DNA of 64,000 nt from Notolepis coatsorum. Its lineage: Eukaryota; Chordata; Actinopteri; Aulopiformes; Paralepididae. The position numbers and the translations under genes were made by a program. The stretch is from assembly GCA_963971535.1 (NCBI GenBank), contig OZ020586.1:70544048-70608047 (forward strand). The letters are read 5' to 3'. This document shows, one piece after another, positions 1 through 62,252 of this stretch. Under the pieces are notes generated by a model that worked only from the letters and a program-made list of their open reading frames with translations, was not told the DNA's origin and ran no database searches. The stretch's first letter is position 1; the number at the start of each line of letters is the position of its first letter.

Positions 1-3000
1 ATGTCGTTAAACGTTAATGGAATGAATAATACGATAAAGAGGGGCAAAGTGATGTTGAAGTGTAAAAAAAGTGAGATGGAAGTGATTTTTCTGCAGGAGA
101 CACATTTGGTAGCACAGGATCATGAGAAACTGAAGAGATTTGGATATGAAAATGCATACTATAGTTCCTTTAAACGGAACCTGAGGAGAGGAGTAATCAC
201 GTTAATCAAAAACAGTCAAATTTGAATTGATCAAGGAAGTAAGAGACAAGGAGGGAAGGTTTGTTCTGGTGAAGGGAAAAATGGAGGGTCAAATGATTAC
301 GTTAGTGAATGTTTATGCACCCCTAGAGAGTGAGAGGGATTTATATGAGACCATTTTTGATATGATAGTGATGGAACTAGAAGGGATATTGATATGCGCG
401 GGAGATTTTAATGTAGTACTGAATCACGACCTAGACACCACGAGTACTAGAAAAGGACGGGCACCAATCAGTAGATATATGAATATTCAGATGACGGAAA
501 TGGGAATTACAGATGTTTGGAGGGGGATGCACGCCATGGACAGGGAATACACACATTACTCACACCCGCACGTGACATATGAGAGAATAGACTACTTTTT
601 GATGACGACGGGGGACAGTTACAGGGTACGGGAGAGCAGAATAGGAGTAGCGGACATATCGGATCACAGTGCCATATATCTGACAGTAGATCTAGAAGGG
701 AGACAGAGGAACACGATCTGGAGACTAAATGTAGGAATATTAAATAACAAGGGGGTGGCGAGTCAGATCAAGGAGGAGATAGCCAGGTATAAGGAAGAAA
801 ATGACAATGGGGCGGTAGATCCGAACATTCTATGGGACACACTGAAGGTGGTGATAAGGGGGAAATTGATGGAGAAGACCGCAATGCTGAAGAAGGCCAG
901 AACGGAGACATATCACAATCTGATAGGGAAGCTGAAGAAGCTAGAGGGGAGACACCAGATATCAAAAGAACAGGAAACGCTCGGAGAAATCAAAGAAGTA
1001 AAGGCCAGGATAAATAGGGAATTATTGACGGAAATAGAAAAGAAAGCGAGGTTCATGAAACAAACGTACTATGAAGGGGGACCAAAAGCGACCAGACTGT
1101 TGGCTAGGAGAATTAGGACACAACAGAAGTTGAACACGATACACACAATAAGGGATACAAAGACTAATATTGAGAGACCCAGCTGAAATAGAGAGGACAT
1201 TTAGAGAATACTATGAGAAACTATACACACAGCCAAAAGCAGCGGGAGAAGAGGAAATAGAAGCATATCTGGAGAAGCTAGAGTTACCATCGATAGGGAA
1301 AGAACAGAATGAAGAATTAAATAAAATAATTACGGAACGAGAACTGGAAGAGGCAATTAGTAGAGCTAAAAACAACAAATCTCCGGGGAGCGACGGATTC
1401 CCATCGGAAGTCTACAAGACATTTAGAACGGAATTAGCACCCATGTTAGGGGCTGGGTTCAGACACACGATGGAGGAGGGCAAAATGCCCCCCCTCGTGG
1501 AAGGAAGCCATAATCACCACGATACCGAAGGAAGGGAAGGATAGAGAATTGTGTAGTAGTTTCAGACCTGTGTCCATACTCAACGTGGATTACAAGATGT
1601 ATACATTGATAATATCAAAGAGATTTGAGACGTTTATGCCAGACATTATAGATGAAGATCAAACTGGATTTATTAAAGGGAGACAGACACAGGACAACGT
1701 GAGAAAGACATTACACATAGTAGAGGAGATACAAAAACAAGGGGGTAGCGCGGTACTGATTAGCCTAGATGCAGAAAAAGCATTAGACAGTGTGAGCTGG
1801 ACATTTTTATATAAAACATTGATGAGGTTCGGACTGAACGGGAGGGCGATGAAGATGATCAAGGCGCTATATCAAGAACCAACAGCGAGGGTTAAGGTGA
1901 ATGGCAGCCTGACGGATAGAATCAGATTAGAGAGGGCTACCAGACAGGGATGTTGTCTCTCACCAACGCTCTTCGCTGTTTTCATAGAACCACTGGCACA
2001 ACTGATCAGACAGACCGAGGACATTAAGGGAGTAAGGATAAAGGGAACGGAATATAAACTAGGCCTATTTGCGGACGACGTGATAGTATACATGAGGCAA
2101 CCAGACAAGAGCTTCCCGGCACTGATGGATCTACTGAAGGAATATGGCCACTACTCAGGATACAAACTAAACGTGACAAAGACACAGACCTTAGCATGGA
2201 ACTATACCCCAACGACGGAAATTAGGGAACAGTACGGGATAAGATGGGACATGGACAAGATTAAATACTTAGGGGTGAACATCACGAGAGGGGTGGGGAA
2301 ACTGTTTGAGGCGAACTATACACAGATAAATCAGAACATCAAGAGAGACTTAGAGAGATGGACAGTAATGCCCTTGGACTTCAATTCAAGAATGGAGGTC
2401 ATTAAAATGAACATACTATCAAGGTTACTGTACCTATTCCAGTCACTACCGATACAAATACCACAGAATCAATTCAGGGAGTGGGACAGACTGATATCGA
2501 GGTTCATATGGGCGGGGAGAAGACCACGGGTCAGATATAAAACACTACAACTACCAAAGGAAGAGGGAGGGATGGCAGTACCCAGCCTACAAGATTATTA
2601 CTATGCAGCATAACTGAGAGCAGTGACGTGCTGGTGTAACGACAGATATGAGGCAAGATGGAAAGACATTGAAAAAGAAGGGGAGGGATACAAGGTACAA
2701 GCTCTGGTGGGAGATAGGGAACTATTTAAAGAAAAAGAGGGACTATTAGATCCAATCACCAAATGCACCTTGACCATATGGAACAGAGTAGTAAAAACAC
2801 ACAAATTGGAGAAGCAGTCAGGGGTTCTGAGATGGGTAGCACATGACAAGAGATTCAAACCAGGGAGGTTAGACCATGGATTCAGAAGGTGGGAGAGGGG
2901 GGGGGGGGGCAACAGCGATATGCAAAATGATAGAGAAGGGGGAAATGCAGACACTTCAGGGGGGGGACCACTTCAGACCACTTCAGATATCTACAGGTTA

Positions 3001-3605
3001 GAGACTACTAACAAAGAAATAAGGGGGGCCAAAGACGAAGAACAGAATGGAATAATCAAGATGATAGTATGGGCATATACGAAGGGGGGCAAGGAAGAGT
3101 AATATCAGCAATATACCGAGCTATAATGAACAGCAAGGGACATACGACCGATTACATAAGGGAGAAATGGGAGAGAGAACTAGAGATAGAAATAACAGGG
3201 AAGGAATGGGGGAACATATGCGAGGTGCAACATTCAACAACAGGATCGAGGATATGGAAAGAGTTTGGATGGAAAAACATAATCAGATTCTTTATAACCC
3301 CAGAGCTGAAGGGAAAATATGCACCAACACAAAGAGCATGCTGGAGGATGTGTGGGAAGGAGGGGGCAAATCACACGCACATATTCTGGGGATGTCAGAA
3401 GCTGAAGGGGTATTGGGAGGAGATAGGGGAGGCAATGATCAGAATATTAGGATACGGGTTACCACAAACATGGCTGGTGCTTTACTTAGGAGACCTGACA
3501 CACGAGGGAATACAAGGGGGGGACAAATATTTAATAAAGATAATGTTGATAGCGGCCAGAAAAGCAATAACAAGACTGTGGTACAAAGAAGACCCACGAC
3601 AATAG
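1..3605 (+). pseudogene. L1 ORF2 (endonuclease-reverse transcriptase), broken
   Basis: Encodes in order an APE-type endonuclease (SLNVNG start, QETHL at about 93-107, GDFN at 401-412, SDHS at 659-670), a linker, a reverse transcriptase (FRPVSILN at about 1561, GFIKGRQTQDN, RQGCCLSP, catalytic FADD at 2068-2079) and a C-terminal Cys-His cluster (CWRMC...HTHIFWGC, about 3339-3395) typical of L1 ORF2. In L1 this protein nicks target DNA and copies its own RNA. Here it is dead: frameshifts near 225, 1170-1186, 1545 and 3069-3102, and an in-frame stop at 2611-2613. Once read across the breaks the length (about 1200 residues) is normal for L1 ORF2. Confidence 0.92.
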
Positions 3606-3998: not shown

Positions 3999-4582
3999 AG
4001 GCTAGCATATGTATGATTAGCAACAACACTGATTTTGACGGATTTTCAGTTTTTTTGTAATGTCAGATTGAAGAAAATACTCACTCTTACCATAAGGGAC
4101 AAAATTGTCCTCTTCAAAAAATGCCATAAAAACATTAGTATATGTTGAAATAATTTACCACTTTTTCTTTCATAAATCTTTTATTCAACTTCAGCCCTGA
4201 TCATAACACCACATATTCATTTTATAATTCTAACCCTTTAAATGCCAGAGTGTGTGATGGCATACATTATATATCAAATGCAAAGTAGATTTTTCTGGGG
4301 GGAGTTATTACAGGCTAGCATGTGTCAATGATTAGCAACAACACTGATTTTGATGGATTTTTAGTTTTTTGTAAGGGTCCCGCCTCCACCAATCACATGC
4401 GGGTCCCTTTGTGTGTGTGAGCAAGAGAGAGAGAGATAGTTCTCCAACTTGTGTGAGTTGCACTGATCTCCTGGTTGTGCCCCACCTAGGTTATCTAACT
4501 ATTGTGCCGCTGCAACTAGAAACACTGGCCTGGCCGCTTCTATACTTTAAGCAAGTGGCTTGTCCTTGCTACGCCCCTGAGT

Positions 4583-4959
4583 GTGTGTACAGCAGTGATC
4601 AAGGATTCAACATTCTCACCCGGTTCTTGGTTCCGTCTGTTGAAACATGCTCTATCAAATATGACATTCCTCTTACTGACACAATGTGCATTGAAAGCAT
4701 CCGTGACATCCTTGTATTTATTTTTCTGTTCCTCTGTGAGCGGCAAAACACTTAATATGTCTTCGGCGTCGTCTCCCGCCGCATACATGAAGGCATTTAC
4801 TTGGAACTCTTCTGACTGTCTATCCAATCCAGACGCTATTCTATAAGGTCCAAATCGTTTCATCCATCTTGGCCAGTCATTAATATTATTGTTGAAATCA
4901 AACCTGCCTGGCGGAGCCAACTGTGGCAGCGACGGCAACTGGGCTGCTTCGTCTCCCAT
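4583..4959 (-). pseudogene. Gypsy gag fragment
   Basis: From the ATG at 4959 the ORF reads a capsid-type Gypsy gag: [34 protein letters not shown], a DAEDIL block, KRNVIFDRACFNRRNQEPGE, then VESLITAVHTL. This is the N-terminal capsid-like domain of vertebrate Ty3/Gypsy elements. It ends abruptly at about 4583 where hAT-like sequence begins; the open frame continues to 4540 only by chance. Its frame is offset by one base from the H1 ORF with which it overlaps (4898-4959), so a single indel in the A/G-rich stretch around 4965-4990 could have split an original H1-gag fusion. Confidence 0.82.
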
Positions 4960-5335
4960 CCTGTCGTCGTCCTTTTCTTCCTTTCTCTTTTTTCTTCTTG
5001 GCCGCTGGCTTCTTTGCTGGCTTTTTTGCTTTAACCTCAGCCTTCTTGTTGATCTTGAAAGAGCCGGAGGCTCCGGTACCCTTGACTTGGACCAAGGTTC
5101 CCTTCATCACCAGACGCTTGACGGCAGTCCTCACACGCGTTTTGTTTTTATCCACATCGTAGCCACCGGCAGCGAGAGCCTTCTTTATGGCAGCGAGTGA
5201 CACCCCGCTCCTCTTTTTAGAAGCAGATACTGCCTCGACGACCAGGTCACTGACACTGAGACCTGCTTTCTTGAGTCTGGGAGCTGCCTTCTTCTTGGCG
5301 CCCGGCGCGGCGGGAGCTGGATCGACTGCTTCCAT
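4898..5335 (-). CDS. Linker histone H1-like protein within a Gypsy element
   Basis: 145-residue ORF starting 66 nt after the PBS. Residues about 20-98 form a linker-histone globular (winged-helix) domain: [67 protein letters not shown]. This is followed by a lysine/alanine-rich tail with [15 protein letters not shown]. Ordinary H1 binds nucleosomal linker DNA. In this position it could help a Gag-like protein bind nucleic acid or target chromatin, which is inference. The last 20 or so codons overlap the gag ORF in another frame. Host H1 tails are usually longer. A processed H1 insertion is the alternative, but the LTR-PBS context and lack of H1 flanking sequence argue against it. Confidence 0.85.
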
Positions 5336-5400
5336 TATCCTCTCGTTCCCTGCTGCGACACATCTTTTTCTTTTTCTCTCTCGTCTCCTTATATTAAGTT

Positions 5401-5418
5401 ATCCCACTTCTGACACCA
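5401..5418 (-). other. Primer binding site, tRNA-Leu type
   Basis: The minus strand reads TGGTGTCAGAAGTGGGAT, complementary to the 3' end of a vertebrate tRNA-Leu including its CCA. It lies immediately after the LTR end, exactly where minus-strand DNA synthesis of an LTR retrotransposon is primed. This anchors the interpretation of the next ORF as element-encoded. Confidence 0.85.
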
Positions 5419-5549
5419 TGTTGTGTAAACCTCGTACTCTTTGGTTCACATATAATAACGAGACGGAGAGCGTGTGATCACATTGACTGTTTACTAGCTT
5501 CCAGACCAGGAAGTACTGTGCCACATATATACCTGTCCGTGTAGCAACA
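5419..5549 (-). repeat. Short Gypsy 5' LTR (131 bp)
   Basis: Read on the minus strand it begins TGTTG and ends CAACA, a perfect 5-bp inverted terminal pair, and abuts the PBS with no gap. A TATATATG motif lies close to its start (about 5526-5533). 131 bp is short for a vertebrate Gypsy LTR, so the outer edge could lie further out. The second LTR is absent, so this cannot be tested by comparison here. Confidence 0.65.
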
Positions 5550-5571
5550 CAAGCCAATACCTTACATGACA

Positions 5572-5692
5572 AAGCTTAGGCGCTCTTTCGAAGTTGGTTA
5601 AGGTTAGAGTTTGTCTTAGAGCATGGCGATAGAACGCCTGCCCTGATTCCAAACTCTAACCTTAACCAACTGCGAAAAAGTCGCCTAAGCTT
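5572..5692. repeat. Foldback hairpin with GGTTAAGGTTAGAG arms
   Basis: The left arm 5572-5613 and right arm 5650-5692 are near-perfect inverted copies (AAGCTTAGGCG..., GTTGGTTAAGGTTAGAGTTT) around a 36-nt loop. The arm core recurs in direct tandem at 36968-37242, so this belongs to a dispersed family. Confidence 0.8.
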
Positions 5693-5966
5693 AACCAGTG
5701 ATAAACTAGGCGTTAGGTAGTTTGCAGGCTGTTAGACCCGGAAATAGGCGCAGAACTTGCCGTCCCACGATTGGTGCACATGTCACATGACCAGAAACGT
5801 GCATGGCCAATCAGAGCGCAAAACGGGAACGCGGAAGGACAAGCCACTTGCTTAAAATATAGACGCGGCCTGGCCTGCTTCCAGGGCCAATAGGGTCGAG
5901 ACCTCTAGGGGTCGCGACCCCCACTTTGGGAACCACTGCTCTAGAGCACTAACATGTTAGCATGTC

Positions 5967-6432: not shown

Positions 6433-7156
6433 GTCATTCAGTGCCATACACAACATTTCTCGGGTTATCTCGCCAGCGGTTGAGCGTCATACCCGAGATT
6501 TCTCTGGTTTTGATCCTTTGATATTTTTCCTCTGATCCCCGTTCTAAACCATCATCCGGATCATTCTATGTGTCCCTGGCTCGTTTGCCTACGTTGGAAT
6601 TGCAATGCCGATCGAATCTCACCAGGTGGCAGTATTGCCTACCTTTTGAACCTTTACAGAACCTGAAACACGTTTATGTAACGATCAGTGTCTTACTTTA
6701 CCGGACATAAACCAAGCGTTTTGTAACAATCGCATTTTCGGGGGAAGACTACCCCCCCCCCCCCCCCCCCTTGATAATTTTGTGAAGGCACATGTGTACA
6801 TGGTATATACACCTTTGATTTGGGAGTATTTGGGGTTTCAGGGGATCAACCAGAATGGTTTGGGCTTATTGCATATAACAGGTTTTATCTCGCGATCTAT
6901 GGAAAAAGACTGGATTATCTTGGAAATGGACGATGTTTAGCGTGTAATAAACTACAAACTACAGTGTGTAGAAACAAACTTTTTTTACATGTTGGACTAG
7001 AAATAGTGTCTGTCAAATGAGCCATACTATTGTCTCCATAGCTATAATATAGAATATACAATAGTGTCCGCAAAGATCTTGAAATATCGCGAAAATGGTA
7101 ATGAAAAGCTGGCGCTAGACAGTGAAGGATGGGGGAAGCTTATGGCGCTCAATGTG
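6433..7156. mobile_element. piggyBac-like MITE
   Basis: TTAA occurs at both edges (6429-6432 and 7157-7160). The terminal sequences GTCATTCAGTGCCATA and, inverted at the right, CACATTGAGCGCCATA match at 12 of 16 positions. No transposase is visible. It contains a poly(C) run at about 6751-6770. Confidence 0.6.
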
Positions 7157-7462
7157 TTAACCAATCCGGTGCGGTTAGAAAATGTGAGCTTCTGCGGAGT
7201 CCGTTCCGCGTACGTTCCGCCCGACTCTGTGGGAGCCTTAAAGGTTATTTATACTTCATCAAATGACACATGCATTTTTTTCAATGATAAATAATAATTC
7301 TTATTTATTTATTTTTTAAACACAATAATATTTTCAGTGATATATTATCAGAGATCAGAGCACATAGCAGCAAGTTGATGATGATGTTCATGAAGTTATG
7401 GCCGACTAGACTCAGACAGTCTGTACCGGTAGGTTGAAGTTAGAGTAGATCGGTTTAAGCCG

Positions 7463-7917
7463 TAGATAAGGTATAAGTATAAGTCTTTATTTGTCATCAG
7501 ATTAACACACACACACACACATGCGATGGGCGACCCACAGGAACACACAAATTAACTGAGTCGCTGACGAAATGTTTTCTGCACTTCCCATCCCGTCGTC
7601 CTTCCACCCAAGGGCAGCCGGGAGCAGACAAGGGCTGCACCGAGCGCCACGCCCCCGGGACCAATCCAAGTGGTCCTGTCCGTCTTCGTCAGGGACGCAA
7701 CAGTGTTGGCGATCTGTTCTGCATGTTTTTCCATTGGGTTTATCTTATTGGGAGGGGAAACCCTTGCGAGCACGGGGAGAACATGCAAACTCCACACAGA
7801 AAGGCCCGGGAGATACCCCACCTGGGTACCTGGCAACCTGGTCCCCAAGCGGGAATCGTACCCACGACCTTCTAGCTGTGAGGCGACAGTGTTAACCACT
7901 AGTACACCACCGTGTAT
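7463..7917 (-). mobile_element. tRNA-derived SINE, second family
   Basis: On the minus strand the head at about 7917-7850 has GTGGTTAACACTGTCGCCTC and a B-box-like GGGTACGATTCCC. The body contains the fish-typical stretch ending GTGTGGAGTTTGCATGTTCT. The 3' end has a short (TG)n and AATAAAGACTTATACTTA. Confidence 0.7.
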
Positions 7918-8206
7918 AGTGATGATGGGTAGTAGATGGGTTTAAGGGGTAGATCTCATAAAACAATGTAATTCTGTAGGCCTGTGAAATAACCTGCTGC
8001 CGGGAGGGTCATCAAAGAGAAGTCGCCTATTCTCAGTCCTTGCCCCACAATGGTGGAATGAACTACCCACCCCAGTTAGGACAGCCGAAACCCGTCCAAT
8101 CTTTCGCCGTCGACTAAAGACGCACTTCTTCAACCATTATCTGAAATAAAATAAAAATAATAAAAATAATAATAAAATAAAGAAATCTAACCTTAACTAA
8201 CCTTAC

Positions 8207-9418
8207 TGTTACAAAGGGTCAGATTAAACCGAATATATGTATTTATTGATTGATATATATTGCATAATATTTGTATATCGTTTGATATCCCTTGTATATT
8301 CTTTGTACATATGCACGGAATATCCCTTTAGCCTACAGCCCATAATAGTTCATTCTCTCATTGGACCAGGACCTGGCGCCAGCAGACAGGCCCCTTGAGT
8401 CAAGTTCAATGGTGCCGACGAACATGTCCCAACTAGCCCCGGTTCCGCGTAGGAATACGTCTACCGAAATACGAATGGTACTATTTGTTCACCGTGCATA
8501 TAAATAGGGCGCAAGAAATGTAGAATTCCTCTTAGTCCCTTGTCCCGTTCAGTCTCGTTCAGTTCCAGTTATCCAAGCGACGTCTCACCCACCATGCAAC
8601 GTGCGGTAGAGTAGGCTCGTATTGCCTCAAATAGAGTCGTGTTTATCCTACTACGTTTGTTTAACGTATCGTTCGCTCCTTACTAGTAAAAGCCTTCATT
8701 ACGAGTCAAAGACCACGTGGAGTGAGTAATTGTGCGTCTACATAGAGCACTTATTGCCGCGTGCTAATAAGGATAGTAACGTCAAGTTCAACCGTGGACC
8801 ACCGCGCACCACGGAGGATACCTACATCGGTGATTGCAGAGCCACTTTCCGGCAAGGATTATTATTCTTCATTGCTTCGACTGTGGCTGCTGGAGCAGAG
8901 AACCGCCTACCCGCTGCTACTGTGGGATCTACACAAGCCCGTGAGGACATCACTCGAGCCCGTCTCTGTCGAAGCAGAGACTCCACGGCTTCATCTGCGG
9001 CGCGCACCCTAGGATTACAGCTGCTGCTTTCCCCGCTGACACAGGGGTGATATCGCCTCCGTGGACCCTTGACTTTGTATAGAGCATTGCCTCCCCCTGC
9101 TGGCTTACAACCGGTAGTACCCCCCTTTCAGTATCTCCAGTATCTCTCCTGAGTACCATAGATAATTACTAATATTCATTATTGATTTGCCTATGCACAT
9201 TCTATTTGCCTTATAAGCGCAATTAAAGTATTGTTATAATATCCTTTGATGTAATAAATATTCTAAACGAGTATTTGTGTGGAAACCGTGTTATTGTGGA
9301 GAAGTTCTCATCTGATATACCTGTGTACGGTACGGCCAGTAATGTACATAAGACGGTAGTAGTTTAATGATACTAATACTTGATTAATACAGTCAGGGAA
9401 TTGTACCCCTCAGTTACA
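8207..9418 (+). mobile_element. Solo LTR, copy 1 (1212 bp)
   Basis: Starts TGTTACA, ends CAGTTACA, and is flanked by the 5-bp duplication CTTAC (8202-8206, 9419-9423). It carries a TATA box and an AATAAA signal (9253-9258). It is homologous along its length to 47120-48416. No internal region remains, as expected after LTR-LTR recombination. The superfamily (Gypsy, BEL or ERV) cannot be told from the LTR alone. Confidence 0.88.
8498..8506 (+). promoter_or_regulatory. LTR TATA box
   Basis: ATATAAATA followed by GGGCGC. The motif is conserved at the same relative place in the second LTR. Confidence 0.65.
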
Positions 9419-9588
9419 CTTACTGTCATGCACATGTCCTAATAAACTAACCTACACTGTAGCACGCAACACTTTGATGAACATTGTTACTGAGCTGATA
9501 GAGTTGTACCCTTCCTGATGACTTCGTACAGAACTTGTAAGTCGCTTTGGATAAAAGTGTCAGCTAAATGACTAAATGTAAATGTAAA

Positions 9589-10255: not shown

Positions 10256-10784
10256 CCAGTTCTAATATGCAACTATTTAGTTTAGACTCCTAGTAGGAAT
10301 AGTTCTAATATGTAACTCTTTTGGTTAGACTCCTAGTAGGACCAGTTCTAATATGTAACTCTTTTGTTTAGACTCCTAGTAGGACCAGTTCTAATATGCA
10401 ACTATTTAGTTTAGACTCCTAGTAGGAACAGTTCTAATATGCAACTCTTTTGTTTAGACTCCTAGTAGGACCAGTTCTAATATGCAACTATTTAGTTTAG
10501 ACTCCTAGTAGGAACCAGAGGTGGGACCAAGTCATTGTTTTGCAAGTCTCAAGTCAGTCGCAAGTCTTGGTACTCAAGTCCCGAGTCAAGTCCCAAGTCA
10601 AGACAGGCAAGTCCCAAGTCGAGTCCCAAGTCAAGACTGACAAGTCCCAAGTCGAGTCCCAAGTCCTAACCTTTAAGTTTCGAGTCCTAAACAAGTCATA
10701 ATACGCTTTTCACCAAAAAGTTTCATTATCAACTTGTTGGCAAAACATAATCTAATTTCTATAAATGTAATAATATTCAGAATC

Positions 10785-12535: not shown

Positions 12536-45877
<33,342 letters not shown>

Positions 45878-56775: not shown

Positions 56776-58170
56776 TTATAGTTCGTTTAGCAGCCTGATG
56801 GCCTGGGGATAGAAGCTTCTTCTGAGTCTTTCTGTGCTCGCCTTAAGACTCCGGTATCGCTTGCCTGACCGCAGCAGTTCAAAGAGGCAGTTGTTCGGGT
56901 GGCTCGAGTCCTTAATAATTCTCTTAGCCTTCCCCTTGCACCGCTTGTTGTAAATGTTCTGGAGGGTGGGAAGCCCCCCTCCAATTGTGCGTTCGGCTGA
57001 ACGTGTCACTCTTTGTAGTCTGCTACGGTCTTGTGCAGTGCTATTCCCAAACCAGGAGGTGATGTTGCCGGTCAGGATGCTCTCTATTGTACATGAGTAG
57101 AAGTTCCTAAGGATCTTCTGACTGACTTGGAACTTCCTTAGGCGCCTGAGGAAGTAGAGGCGTTGTCGTGCCTTCTTCACAACACTGTCAATGTGTGTGG
57201 TCCATGTCAAGTCCTCGGATATGTGGGCTCCGAGGTACTTGAAACTGTTCACTCTCTCAACCGGTGCCCCGTCGATGCTGAGGGGGCTGTAGTCCTTGAC
57301 CCCCGACCTCCTGAAGTCCACAATCATCTCTTTTGTTTTGCTGACGTTCAGGGAGAGGCAGTTCTCCTGACACCACTGTGACAGGTTCTCTACCTCTTCC
57401 AGGTAGGCCCTTTCGTCGTTGGCAGAGATCAGGCCCACCACTACTGTGTCATCAGCAAATTTGATGATGGTGTTGCTGTTCCGCTGTGCTACGCAGTCAT
57501 GTGTGTACAGGGAGTAGAGGAGGGGGCTCAGAACACAGCCCTGGGGGGCCCCTATGTTGAGCATGATGGATGAGGAGGTGCAGTTGCCGGCTCTTACCAC
57601 CTGGGGTCTGCCCGTCAGGAAGTCCAAGACCCACTGGCACAGGTCATAGTTCAAGCCCAGGTCCCTGAGCTTGGCTATGAGTTTGGAGGGGACTATGGTA
57701 TTGAATGCTGAGCTGTAGTCGATGAACAGCATTCTCACATAGTTCCCCTGCCTCTTGTCCAGGTGTGATGCTGCTGTGTGCAGCACATGGGCTATGGCGT
57801 CCTCCGTGGACCTGTTGGGGCGATATGCAAATTGCAGAGGGTCCAGGTTGATGGGGAGGGAGGAACAGATGTAGCCCTTCACTAGCTTCTCAAAGCACTT
57901 CATGGCTATGGAGGTGAGGGCTACAGGGCGGTAGTCGTTGAGGCAAGCGGGCGTAGATTTTTTGGGTACAGGGATGATGGTGGACTTCTTCAGACAGGTG
58001 GGGATGACAGCCTGTTCCAAGGACAGGTTGAAGATGTCAGTGAATACCGGGGCCAGTTGGTCGGCACAGACTTTTAGGACGCGGCCGGGGATGCCGTCCG
58101 GTCCTGCTGCCTTCCTGATATTCACTTTTTTAAAGATCCGTCTCACCTCATGCTCTGTTACCCTGAACAC
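56776..58170 (-). CDS. LINE reverse transcriptase (ORF2 C-terminal part)
   Basis: 464 uninterrupted codons: [95 protein letters not shown], catalytic FADDTVVVG (complement of about 57441-57467), then the C-terminal [10 protein letters not shown] end. In LINEs this copies the element RNA at the nicked target. The only obvious lesion separating it from the upstream endonuclease part is the C/G run at 58186-58204. Confidence 0.9.
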
Positions 58171-58180
58171 TGAGTCTCCA

Positions 58181-59056
58181 TCAGCAGACCCCCCCCCCCC
58201 CCCCCATTGCCGTGGTTTGTAGGCTGGTGTTGTTATTCACAGCCTCAAACCTCGCATAGAAGGAATTGAGATCATTTGCTAAGGAGATGTCACTGTTCAG
58301 TTTGAGGGGGGTGCCTTTGTAGTCTGTCATTGTTCTGAGGCCCTGCCACATGCCTCTAGAGTCAGCCTGTTCAAACTGAAGTTCAACTTTATCCCTGTAA
58401 CGTCGTTTTGCCTCTATTACTGCTCTCCTGACGTTGTATCTTGCCATCTTGTGTTCTTCCATGTTGCCTGTCACCAGCCCGGTGTTGTATGCTGATGTGC
58501 GCACTTTCAGAGCCTCACGGACGGATTTGTCTACCCAGGGCTTTTGATTTGGGTAGATTTTAATTTTGGTGGAGGGGATTGTTTCTTCTACCTGAGTACA
58601 GATATAGTCAATCACCGTTTCGGTGTATTCGTGAATATTGGCTGTGTTATCACGGAATACACTCCAGTCTGTGCATTCCAGTACAGCTTGGAGTGACTCC
58701 TCTGACGTCACGGCCCAACGCTTAACCTCTCGCGAGACCACCGGCGTTCGCTTGAGACTTCGTTTGTACTTTGGCAAAAGAAAGATGGCGGCGTGATCGC
58801 TTTTACCGAATGGACTAAGAGCCTGTGACTTGTACCCATTCTTAAATTGCGAGTATACATGGTCTAATATGTTCTCGCCTCTGGTGGGACAGGTCACATG
58901 CTGATAGAAATTCGGCAGCACCTTTTTAAGACGCGCGCTGTTGAAATCGCCCAGAACCAAAATGGCAGCGTCAACATTAGCTGCCTGGAGTTTGTTTACC
59001 TCGTCGTGAAGTTTTGAAAGTGCGACCCCAGTGTTCGCGTGTGGTGGAATGTACAC
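58181..59056 (-). CDS. LINE endonuclease C-terminus and linker (ORF2 N-terminal part)
   Basis: 291 codons: [26 protein letters not shown] and [12 protein letters not shown] are the last APE-endonuclease motifs. A linker follows with [14 protein letters not shown] and [19 protein letters not shown]. The frame ends in a glycine run produced by the poly(G) tract, right before the RT frame. The first endonuclease motifs (N, QETH) are missing by 5' truncation. Confidence 0.88.
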
Positions 59057-59308
59057 TCCGATGAGGATGATGGACGTTAACTCTCTTGGGAGGAAGAAGG
59101 GTCGACATTTTATCGTGATAAACTCCAGGTCTGGATTGGAGAGTGTCTAATACTTCATCATGTAAAAGGGGATAAAAGGAGAATTGAGGGGTGTGAATGA
59201 TCACACAATAAGTGTCTATATCAACATCAACAAGAAGAAGTCTGATTTATTCTCTATCAAACAATTTCCCATCAACTGCAAAGTGTTTATTAAATGCAAG
59301 ACCAATTA

Positions 59309-59475
59309 AATTCTGGCTATGAATAACACAATTGTGATCATTAATATGAGCAGGTAGTAGGGATGGGCATTTTTAAGAAGAATCCAGATACATTTTGGCT
59401 ATGAATAACACAATTGTCATCATTAATATGAGCGGGTAGTAGGGATGGGCATTTTTAAGAAGAATCCAGATCGAT
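59309..59475. repeat. Two tandem units of about 84 bp
   Basis: TTTTGGCTATGAATAACACA ... GGGATGGGCATTTTTAAGAA repeated with three differences. Confidence 0.9.
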
Positions 59476-59530
59476 TGATCACATGCTATACTCGAGTGAT
59501 CGTGTATTACTCGAAAAGGGAAAAAAAAAT

Positions 59531-59637
59531 GTTGGACGTTGGACGTTGTGGACAGCGACTCCTACAGGTCGGTTGGGTGACGCCTGTACAGCAGAAACAG
59601 GAAGTATCGGGGGCAGCGTGAGCCTCCCACGCGTTAC
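59531..59637 (+). mobile_element. tRNA-derived SINE fragment, copy 4
   Basis: Body segment GACAGCGACTCCTACAGGTC ... GAGCCTCCCACGCGTTAC. Cut at the right by the hAT sequence at 59638. Confidence 0.8.
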
Positions 59638-59780
59638 TAGGGATGGGTATCGTTAGGATTTTATCGATACTACTACTCTTATCGATACTGTTTAACGGTT
59701 CGGTACTTTATCGATACTCTTATCGGTTCTTTTTGATAATTTTTTTGTGTAGTTGACAAGTCAGGTAATAGGTTAAAAAC
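59638..59780. mobile_element. hAT MITE fragment (TAGGGATGGGTATCG end)
   Basis: Left terminus followed by TATCGATAC repeats. The right end is lost. Confidence 0.6.
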
Positions 59781-59784
59781 ACTT

Positions 59785-60175
59785 CGGAAAAAACCAGGGT
59801 GGTCAAAGTTTGGGGTGTATACATTTAAGAGGGTAACATGAAATGATAACATATTGCCCATGACAATCAAATAGCGGCCGTTGGGATCGGCTATGGTAGA
59901 TATATGTTGGAATGGGATATTTTTGCGCATTAGTATAGCCACCCCTCGCGCCTTTGATGAAAGTGATTGATAGACCTGGCCCACCCAACCGCACCTCAGC
60001 TTGTGCGCGTCACAGTGTTTAATATGAGTTTCTTGGAGAAACATAATATCAGCAGACAGCGATTTCAAGTGAGAGAAAACTTTCGATCGTTTAACGGGAG
60101 TATTTAACGCTCGGACATTCCAGCTGGCTAAAGTAATATTGCCATCCCGGTTGATATTAGGAGTCGTCATAATCG
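59785..60175 (-). pseudogene. L1 ORF2 start, endonuclease domain fragment
   Basis: From the start codon at 60170 the minus strand reads ITLASWNVRALNTPVKRSKV, ADIMFLQETHIK, ARGVAILMRKNIPF and VTLLNVYTPNFDHPGF, the N-terminal third of an L1 APE endonuclease. Truncated after about 130 codons. The sequence to about 60370 is probably the ORF1-ORF2 spacer. A different L1 lineage from the one at 1-3998, judging by residue differences. Confidence 0.85.
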
Positions 60176-61104: not shown

Positions 61105-61893
61105 ACAGTCATACCTATGCAAACTAGCACTCCACACCAACAAGTAAACACAACGTCATACCTACGCAAGCTAGCACTCCACACCAACAAGTAAACACAA
61201 CGTCATACCTACGCAAACTAGCACTCCACACCAACAAGTAAACACAACGTCATACCTACGCAAGCTAGCACTCCACACCAACAAGTAAACACAACGTCAT
61301 ACCTACGCAAGCTAGCACTCCAAACCAACAAGTAAACACAACGTCATACCTACGCAAACTAGCACTCCACACCAACAAGTAAACACAACGTCATACCTAC
61401 GCAAGCTAGCACTCCACACCAACAAGTAAACACAACGTCATACCTACGCAAGCTAGCACTCCACACCAACAAGTAAACACGTCATACCTACGCAAGCTAG
61501 CACTCCACACCAACAAGTAAACACAACGTCATACCTACACAAGCTAGCACTCCACACCAACAAGTAAACACAACGTCATACCTACGCAAGCTAGCACTCC
61601 ACACCAACAAGTAAACACAACGTTATACGGTAACCTACACAAACTAGCACTCCACACCAACAAGTAAACACAACGTCATACCTACGCAAGCTAGCACTCC
61701 ACACCAACAAGTAAACACAACGTCATACCTACGCAAGCTAGCACTCCACACCAACAAGTAAACACAACATCATACCTACGCAAACTAGCACTCCACACCA
61801 ACAAGTAAACACAACGTCATACCTACGCAAGCTAGCACTCCACACCAACAAGTAAACACAACGTCATACCTACGCAAGCTAGCACTCCACACC
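61105..61893. repeat. 47-bp minisatellite, about 17 units
   Basis: CGTCATACCTACGCAAGCTA + GCACTCCACACCAACAAGTAAACACAA repeated with very few variants (CAAGC/CAAAC alternates, one 4-bp deletion near 61480). Confidence 0.97.
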
Positions 61894-61894
61894 A

Positions 61895-62252
61895 ACAGTG
61901 AACAGGTCCGGAAGGGCGGAGACTATCGCATGCTTCCTCCGACACATGTGTACCCAGCCCACCGCTTCTTTTCACCTGGCAGCGCGGACTCTCACTGGGA
62001 GAGTGTAACGTGTGGAAGGTCACACTACCTCTCTCAGATCCTTCCCTTGCTGTGCAGGCGCCCCGACCGAACTGTAGTAGTTGCTGTTTACAACGACCAG
62101 GACCCACCCTCGCCGGGTTTCCCACCCTCTAACACTGCCAATTGTTAGTATGGACGGTCGGCCAACCCGGAAGCACCACAGCTGGATTCGATCCCACTGT
62201 CCCTGTGGTGGTAGACAGACGCTTAGTCCGCTGCTACCCGGCCGCCGGGTTC
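61895..62252 (-). mobile_element. tRNA-derived SINE, copy 5
   Basis: The minus strand has head GGCCGGGTAGCAGCGGACTAAG, B-box GGGATCGAATCC and shared body AGGTGAAAAGAAGCGG. The 3' part abuts the minisatellite. Confidence 0.88.

Follow-up and report, generated by a model that had tools for sequence, protein, structure and literature searches.

The stretch of DNA analysed here (the window) comprises 64,000 nucleotides of the Notolepis coatsorum genome, on contig OZ020586.1. It contains a broken Ty3/Gypsy retrotransposon in which a coding sequence for linker histone H1 lies between the primer-binding site (PBS) and gag (Table 1). When the window's own genome (3.42 Gb) was searched with the H1 open reading frame (ORF), and the best 150 of 599 candidates were scored, at least 26 dispersed copies of the element H1 were found on 11 contigs, with 83-100% identity and the window included. 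On balance, these copies are read as a non-autonomous Ty3/Gypsy family that captured H1, most likely as a nucleic-acid- and chromatin-binding head of its Gag protein.

The initial annotation had described a long terminal repeat (LTR) end, an abutting PBS, an H1 ORF and then a Gypsy gag; this layout was recovered on the minus strand, which that annotation had not stated. The PBS presumably fits tRNA-Leu, and the H1 start codon, at 5335, follows after a gap of 65 nt. The 18 nt of the PBS are identical in two H1-less copies described below (L040 and L042), and no tRNA gene was found among the 26 loci scanned. The H1 ORF as read (5335-4898, minus strand) matches PF00538 above the cutoff (E 7.1e-23, residues 27-96) and its top solved chains are H1 globular domains, bearing out the globular domain originally proposed. 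The gag part is 75% identical to residues 6-133 of a gag-pol protein, P0054. Its ORF has no match in Pfam, and its best match in a search covering proteins up to about 243 aa is a Merluccius polli protein (80% identity over 79% of the query).

Gag similarity ends at 4579, and the remainder of the element is missing at this locus. Because the gag ORF (4540-4959) overlaps the H1 ORF in a different frame, the window copy is a broken remnant, disrupted near the Lys-rich stretch. Thus, the annotated order of an H1 ORF with a Lys-rich tail followed by gag holds, but the gag is not uninterrupted: it is truncated and out of frame. The 41-nt inverted repeat around the remnant probably represents another element, with the H1-gag copy nested in this other transposon. 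A small fold-back element (5583-5613 and 5650-5680) also lies beside the remnant.

Table 1. Features of the H1-gag locus in the window
Feature	Position	Strand	Basis
5' LTR, 153 nt, TG..CA ends	5419..5571	-	read from sequence
PBS TGGTGTCAGAAGTGGGAT, directly abutting the LTR end CA	5401..5418	-	sequence
Element leader	5359..5400	-	copy L010 against H1-less copies, similarity stops near here; boundary transferred by eye
About 23 nt from just 5' of the host H1 ATG, presumed 5' untranslated region	5336..5358	-	copy L010 against host H1 locus L036; window boundary set by eye
H1-derived coding sequence (N-terminus, globular domain, start of Lys-rich tail)	4997..5335	-	PF00538; boundary at 4997 (3' end of H1 part) from L010-host alignment, transferred by eye
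H1 globular winged-helix domain	5048..5257	-	Pfam residues 27-96; L010 domain fold
Lys/Arg/Glu/Asp-rich junction, H1 tail and old gag leader	4960..4996	-	H1 and gag out of frame here
gag, capsid N-terminal part, truncated	4579..4959	-	protein similarity
Inverted-repeat arm, 41 nt, 93%	4527..4567	-	brackets truncated H1-gag copy
Opposite arm of 41-nt inverted repeat	5835..5875	+	

A multiplied family without reverse transcriptase

All 26 H1 copies are flanked by family LTR sequence, leader and gag (partial in some); LTR matches lie 5' of H1 in every copy, and a second LTR lies 3' in most. The elements are only 3.3-3.4 kb long, leaving little room for env. Thirteen copies have two LTR matches passing the cut: all of them except L019 and L021 (11 of 13) are flanked by a perfect 5-bp target duplication, 12 have the polypurine tract AAAAGGGGAAG ahead of the 3' LTR, with one variant, and their LTR pairs diverge by K 0.0065-0.061. 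The shared layout, the target duplications and the LTR divergence indicate that H1 moved with the element and that the insertions differ in age. Recurrence of H1 between PBS and gag, which the initial annotation had proposed as a check, is therefore found throughout the family, and the same order at 25 other places excludes a chance origin of the window layout. The remaining 124 scored H1 matches were read as host-type H1 genes by place and identity, and five were fetched. Most of them seemingly sit in several large clusters, on contigs C4, C9, C29 and C32 and on C1 near 13.3-13.7 Mb.

Many of the 26 copies sit in long open frames. By coordinates, a single open frame covers H1 and gag in 19 copies, and in 8 a frame is open from H1 through integrase. 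The H1-to-gag distance is 402-435 nt in 17 of the in-frame copies; in L018 and L019 repeated units of roughly four residues (ERKK) lengthen the junction, bringing this distance to 603 and 567 nt, still in frame. Longer distances are also seen in L014 (565 nt) and L033 (482 nt), both out of frame.

The polyprotein has the order H1-capsid-CCHC-protease-integrase core. The H1 globular winged-helix fold was found in copy L010, together with a retroviral capsid fold and a CCHC knuckle, the latter two with moderate scores; the CCHC spacing is present in seven of the eight copies open through integrase. Of the Ty3/Gypsy pol order (protease, reverse transcriptase, RNase H, integrase), the family retains a protease motif followed by an integrase core. 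Comparison with P0054 detected the family reverse transcriptase or RNase H in no H1 copy (0 of 26). One deletion, joining P0054 residue 459 to about residue 998, is shared by 23 copies; the other three (L015, L017 and L034) end before the deletion point and are uninformative. The family is thus non-autonomous, which the initial annotation had not foreseen, and it is a deletion derivative of Ty3/Gypsy, since one H1-less copy has both enzymes and P0054 the complete pol order. Because 23 of the 26 copies carry the same join, the deletion probably predates the copies seen.

The sole reverse-transcriptase match in the P0054 comparison belongs to a second gypsy element in L015 (locus 6816-9500). This was rejected as a helper because its identity is only about 24% with L010 and 32% with P0054, so that it represents another family. 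L009 and L028 also contain reverse-transcriptase ORFs, which were set aside: they carry PF09004 and look like inserted non-LTR elements.

Relatives without H1 occur in the same genome. A gag search, in which the best 150 of 3360 candidates were scored, gave 82 places at >=80% identity, lower rows being left out. As with H1, scoring only the best 150 makes the counts lower bounds. Twenty-five of the 82 places have an H1 copy no more than 2.5 kb away (the 26th copy, C43:50247768, has no row among the gag matches listed) and 57 do not; 8 of these 57 have open frames of >=900 aa. Three H1-less 5' ends were sampled. In L040 and L042 the LTR and leader are 78-79% identical to those of L010, and the A-rich leader runs straight into gag with no H1 between; in L041 the LTR, leader and gag start are gone. 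A stretch from the H1-less copy of L040 encodes an open reverse transcriptase and RNase H. Median identity to the window gag is 95% for H1 copies versus 91% for H1-less ones.

The initial annotation had regarded copies lacking H1 as evidence against an H1-bearing family. Such copies are numerous, but at least some of the 57 belong to an H1-less sister family. Part of these rows are partial matches, and some may come from truncated members of one family or the other. The sister family is a natural helper candidate.

Source of the captured H1

Retroelements capture host genes, and here both junctions of the capture are visible. About 23 nt lying just before the H1 ATG in L010 correspond to the sequence before the ATG of the host H1 locus L036, with 21 identities. 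At the other end, likeness to host H1 stops around codon 113, within the Lys-rich tail, and the old leader resumes there; the sequence is A- and AAG-rich on both sides. Three of four host H1 ORFs extend to 204-224 aa, and L036, the nearest host H1 in silent sites, ends at 160 aa with an odd tail. The element H1 does not retain the long Lys-rich C-terminal tail. Near-identity to a host H1 mRNA with pieces of untranslated region had been named beforehand as an observation that would tell against the proposal. The host upstream sequence is indeed carried, but identity between element and host H1 DNA is only about 84%, and the captured H1 has spread together with the element.

A placement of the H1 domain in a tree with host H1 genes, as the initial annotation had suggested, was made from 47 protein rows (26 element copies, 5 of the many host H1 genes and 16 rows from other species). 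The 26 element H1s form one clade beside the host H1s (support 99/94), and element and host H1s together split from the other-species rows (100/98), although the bootstrap had not fully settled. An earlier tree including a very long branch, P0049, did not place the element rows on one side of a branch; a single element clade was not rejected (p-AU 0.553), and with P0049 left out the element rows do group as one clade. Mean silent divergence (pS) is 0.21 between element copies and L036, and 0.0685 among element copies, with a largest value of 0.197.

These comparisons indicate that the element H1 descends from a cellular H1. They point to one capture, because the element H1s form one clade beside the host H1s and keep about 23 nt of host upstream sequence, and to a capture that is old relative to the insertions seen, because element-host silent differences exceed most of those among element copies. 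The junctions fit template switching between H1 mRNA and element RNA as a possible route.

Related elements and other features of the window

The closest relatives outside the genome are fish-like Ty3/Gypsy gag-pol proteins (P0053, P0054 and P0057), 67-79% identical over the searched gag-protease part; proteins similar to them are named K02A2.6-like or Gypsy retrotransposon integrase-like. They share the order of gag, protease and integrase with the H1 family but have the reverse transcriptase and RNase H that it lacks, and the genome's own H1-less copies are nearer (median 91% over the gag part). The best gag relative in the protein library is 79-80% identical. PF00538 was found in none of the 120 matches listed out of 692, and no H1 match at E 0.01 was found in 148 gag relatives.

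The H1 part was also searched against proteins of about 467-1487 aa from other species, giving 24 matches from 2166 candidates, which were judged by inspection (11), by Pfam scan (9) or from the domain column. None was accepted as H1-gag: they comprise gene models with a doubled H1 or with H1 plus a core histone, HP1BP3-like proteins, or H1 joined to other proteins (P0029, P0040, P0041 and P0048), and none of the 24 shows gag similarity at E 1e-3. P0041, an Acipenser sinensis gene model of 604 aa, has a full-length H1 after about 400 residues that we take to resemble a transposon protein; either two gene models were merged here or H1 may have joined a mobile element a further time. Among viral contigs, 14 stretches fit a peptide pattern and none of the 14 encodes a relative by tblastn; plasmid records gave no match.

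Plant TR-GAG elements are non-autonomous LTR elements that keep gag. Like the H1 family, they have LTRs and gag, lack reverse transcriptase and would depend on help in trans; the H1 family differs in its fish-like host, its retained protease and integrase core, and the host H1 fused to its Gag. Foamy virus Gag is a chromatin tether. So is the p12 part of murine leukaemia virus (MLV) Gag, which is reported to bind nucleosomes (PMC6021111). A chromatin-binding part on Gag would do the same job as the H1 head, but p12 is a viral nucleosome-binding sequence, whereas the H1 head is a captured host linker histone with predicted binding. Giant viruses likewise encode H1-like domains in a mobile genome; as described in a review of viral histones (PMC9145170), they are DNA viruses whose H1-like proteins are not fused to Gag, and the review's text contains no word starting with retrovir or retrotranspos. 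Chromatin tethering by MLV Gag is known already. A multiplied family whose Gag carries a fused linker histone is apparently new: none was found in the literature, with subscription papers and repeat libraries outside the search.

Elsewhere in the window, a 154-nt inverted repeat with 100% complementarity (19498-19651 and 22299-22452) brackets an ORF (20327-20866) that presumably resembles a tyrosine recombinase, judged by eye; together they are possibly a DIRS-like or related element. Broken non-LTR retrotransposons with ORFs that by eye are endonuclease/reverse-transcriptase-like lie at 227-3605 (plus strand) and 56776-60170 (minus strand). Three minisatellites are present, with units of 47 nt x 17 (61108-61904), 35 nt x 18 (45079-45716) and 43 nt x 6 (10257-10515).

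Retention and possible role of the H1 head

Selection was measured as the ratio of nonsynonymous to synonymous variants (N/S) against the neutral expectation. Variants in >=2 copies mostly arose in replicating lineages, and single variants after insertion. For shared and single variants, respectively, N/S is 0.25 and 1.03 in gag, 0.18 and 0.82 in protease, and 0.60 and 1.08 in the integrase core. Gag and protease were thus clearly constrained despite the loss of reverse transcriptase. Six H1 residues differ in most element copies from four host genes; at one of these, a change from Glu to Lys that adds charge is fixed in all 26.

The proposed history starts from an ancestor close to the H1-less gag-pol family still in the genome. 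Its A-rich leader, between PBS and gag, would have received the front portion of a host H1 mRNA, made up of about 113 codons and some 23 nt preceding the ATG, most likely by reverse-transcriptase template switching at A/AAG-rich sequence. H1 and Gag would then be fused in one frame that opens with a new start codon. Before or after the capture, a deletion of about 540 codons would have taken out reverse transcriptase and RNase H, probably along with the integrase zinc finger, and the remaining H1-capsid-CCHC-protease-integrase-core polyprotein would have spread to at least 26 places. The sister family presumably supplies reverse transcriptase and full integrase through Gag co-assembly. The H1 head would be an extra nucleic-acid- and chromatin-binding domain of Gag that holds RNA or cDNA or tethers the integration complex to nucleosomes; this role, akin to the packaging or chromatin targeting suggested in the initial annotation, is the least certain step. 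Fusions of H1 with a LEDGF/p75 fragment are reported to bind chromatin and to work as HIV-1 cofactors (PMC2706977). The H1 head on Gag could act like these fusions or like MLV p12, or it could hold RNA.

Several points weigh against this history or against a functional H1 head. Constraint on H1 is weak: N/S is 0.51 for shared and 0.48 for single variants, the same ratio in both classes, and without CpG sites the values of 0.51 and 0.43 are not significant (both P 0.11). The Lys of KGTGASGSF, which we take to be a nucleosome-contacting residue, is replaced in 14 of 26 copies by Thr (13) or Met (1), including several with near-identical LTRs. Most of the H1 C-terminal tail, reportedly the primary determinant of chromatin binding in vivo, was not captured. 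The 26 copies were picked by H1, so its presence in them is by construction and copies that lost it are uncounted. Insertion ages are rough because LTR pairs show only 1 to 9 differences over 141-154 sites, and mobilisation in trans is itself a deduction from the missing reverse transcriptase.

The weak constraint and the lost Lys fit a genuine capture in which H1 is a passenger, its frame kept by chance and the spread of the family due to the LTRs and Gag-protease. So does the greater mean divergence between copies in H1 (0.0436) than in gag (0.0283). Against a passenger stand the H1-gag frame kept in 19 of 26 copies across seven different distances (402 to 603 nt), the fixed Glu-to-Lys change, and the 88-95 aligned H1 codons free of stops in all 26 copies, although few stops would be expected at such divergence. 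Such a passenger is less probable than the capture of a working head, yet it is a serious rival, and the H1 domain is read as maintained for binding nucleic acid in general rather than for an exact nucleosome fit. RNA binding rather than chromatin tethering is also what H1 would add if H1-Gag were a decoy that co-assembles with sister Gag and mainly captures helper particles for its own RNA or poisons them. The constraint on gag and protease without a reverse transcriptase and the presence of an H1-less relative with this enzyme agree with a decoy, but a divergence of about 9% between the gags, over the part compared, makes co-assembly no more than likely; this account is rather unlikely.

Two further possibilities can be given little weight. 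An open frame from H1 to integrase in eight copies would suit host genes domesticated for a cellular function of H1-Gag, but the copies are dispersed with LTRs and target duplications, the frame is broken or incomplete in the other 18, and single gag variants are at the neutral ratio, making domestication very improbable. That the H1 segment begins upstream of the host ATG is what might be seen if a processed pseudogene had happened to land next to an LTR, or in an assembly chimera; this origin is refuted by the identical layout at 26 places on 11 contigs, the target duplications and the H1-less arrangement in two other copies, and its likelihood is negligible.

If the captured H1 does serve as a Gag head, particles or integration complexes may bind nucleosomes, and such a tether might let an element without reverse transcriptase rival its helper and steer its insertion; this extension is tentative. 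The family shows Gag and protease kept under constraint after the loss of reverse transcriptase. Because the genome also holds H1-less relatives with a similar leader, any influence of the H1 head on how the element is packaged, with what it partners and where it inserts would be directly comparable, and the family offers a natural experiment on the benefit that a retrotransposon may draw from a chromatin protein.
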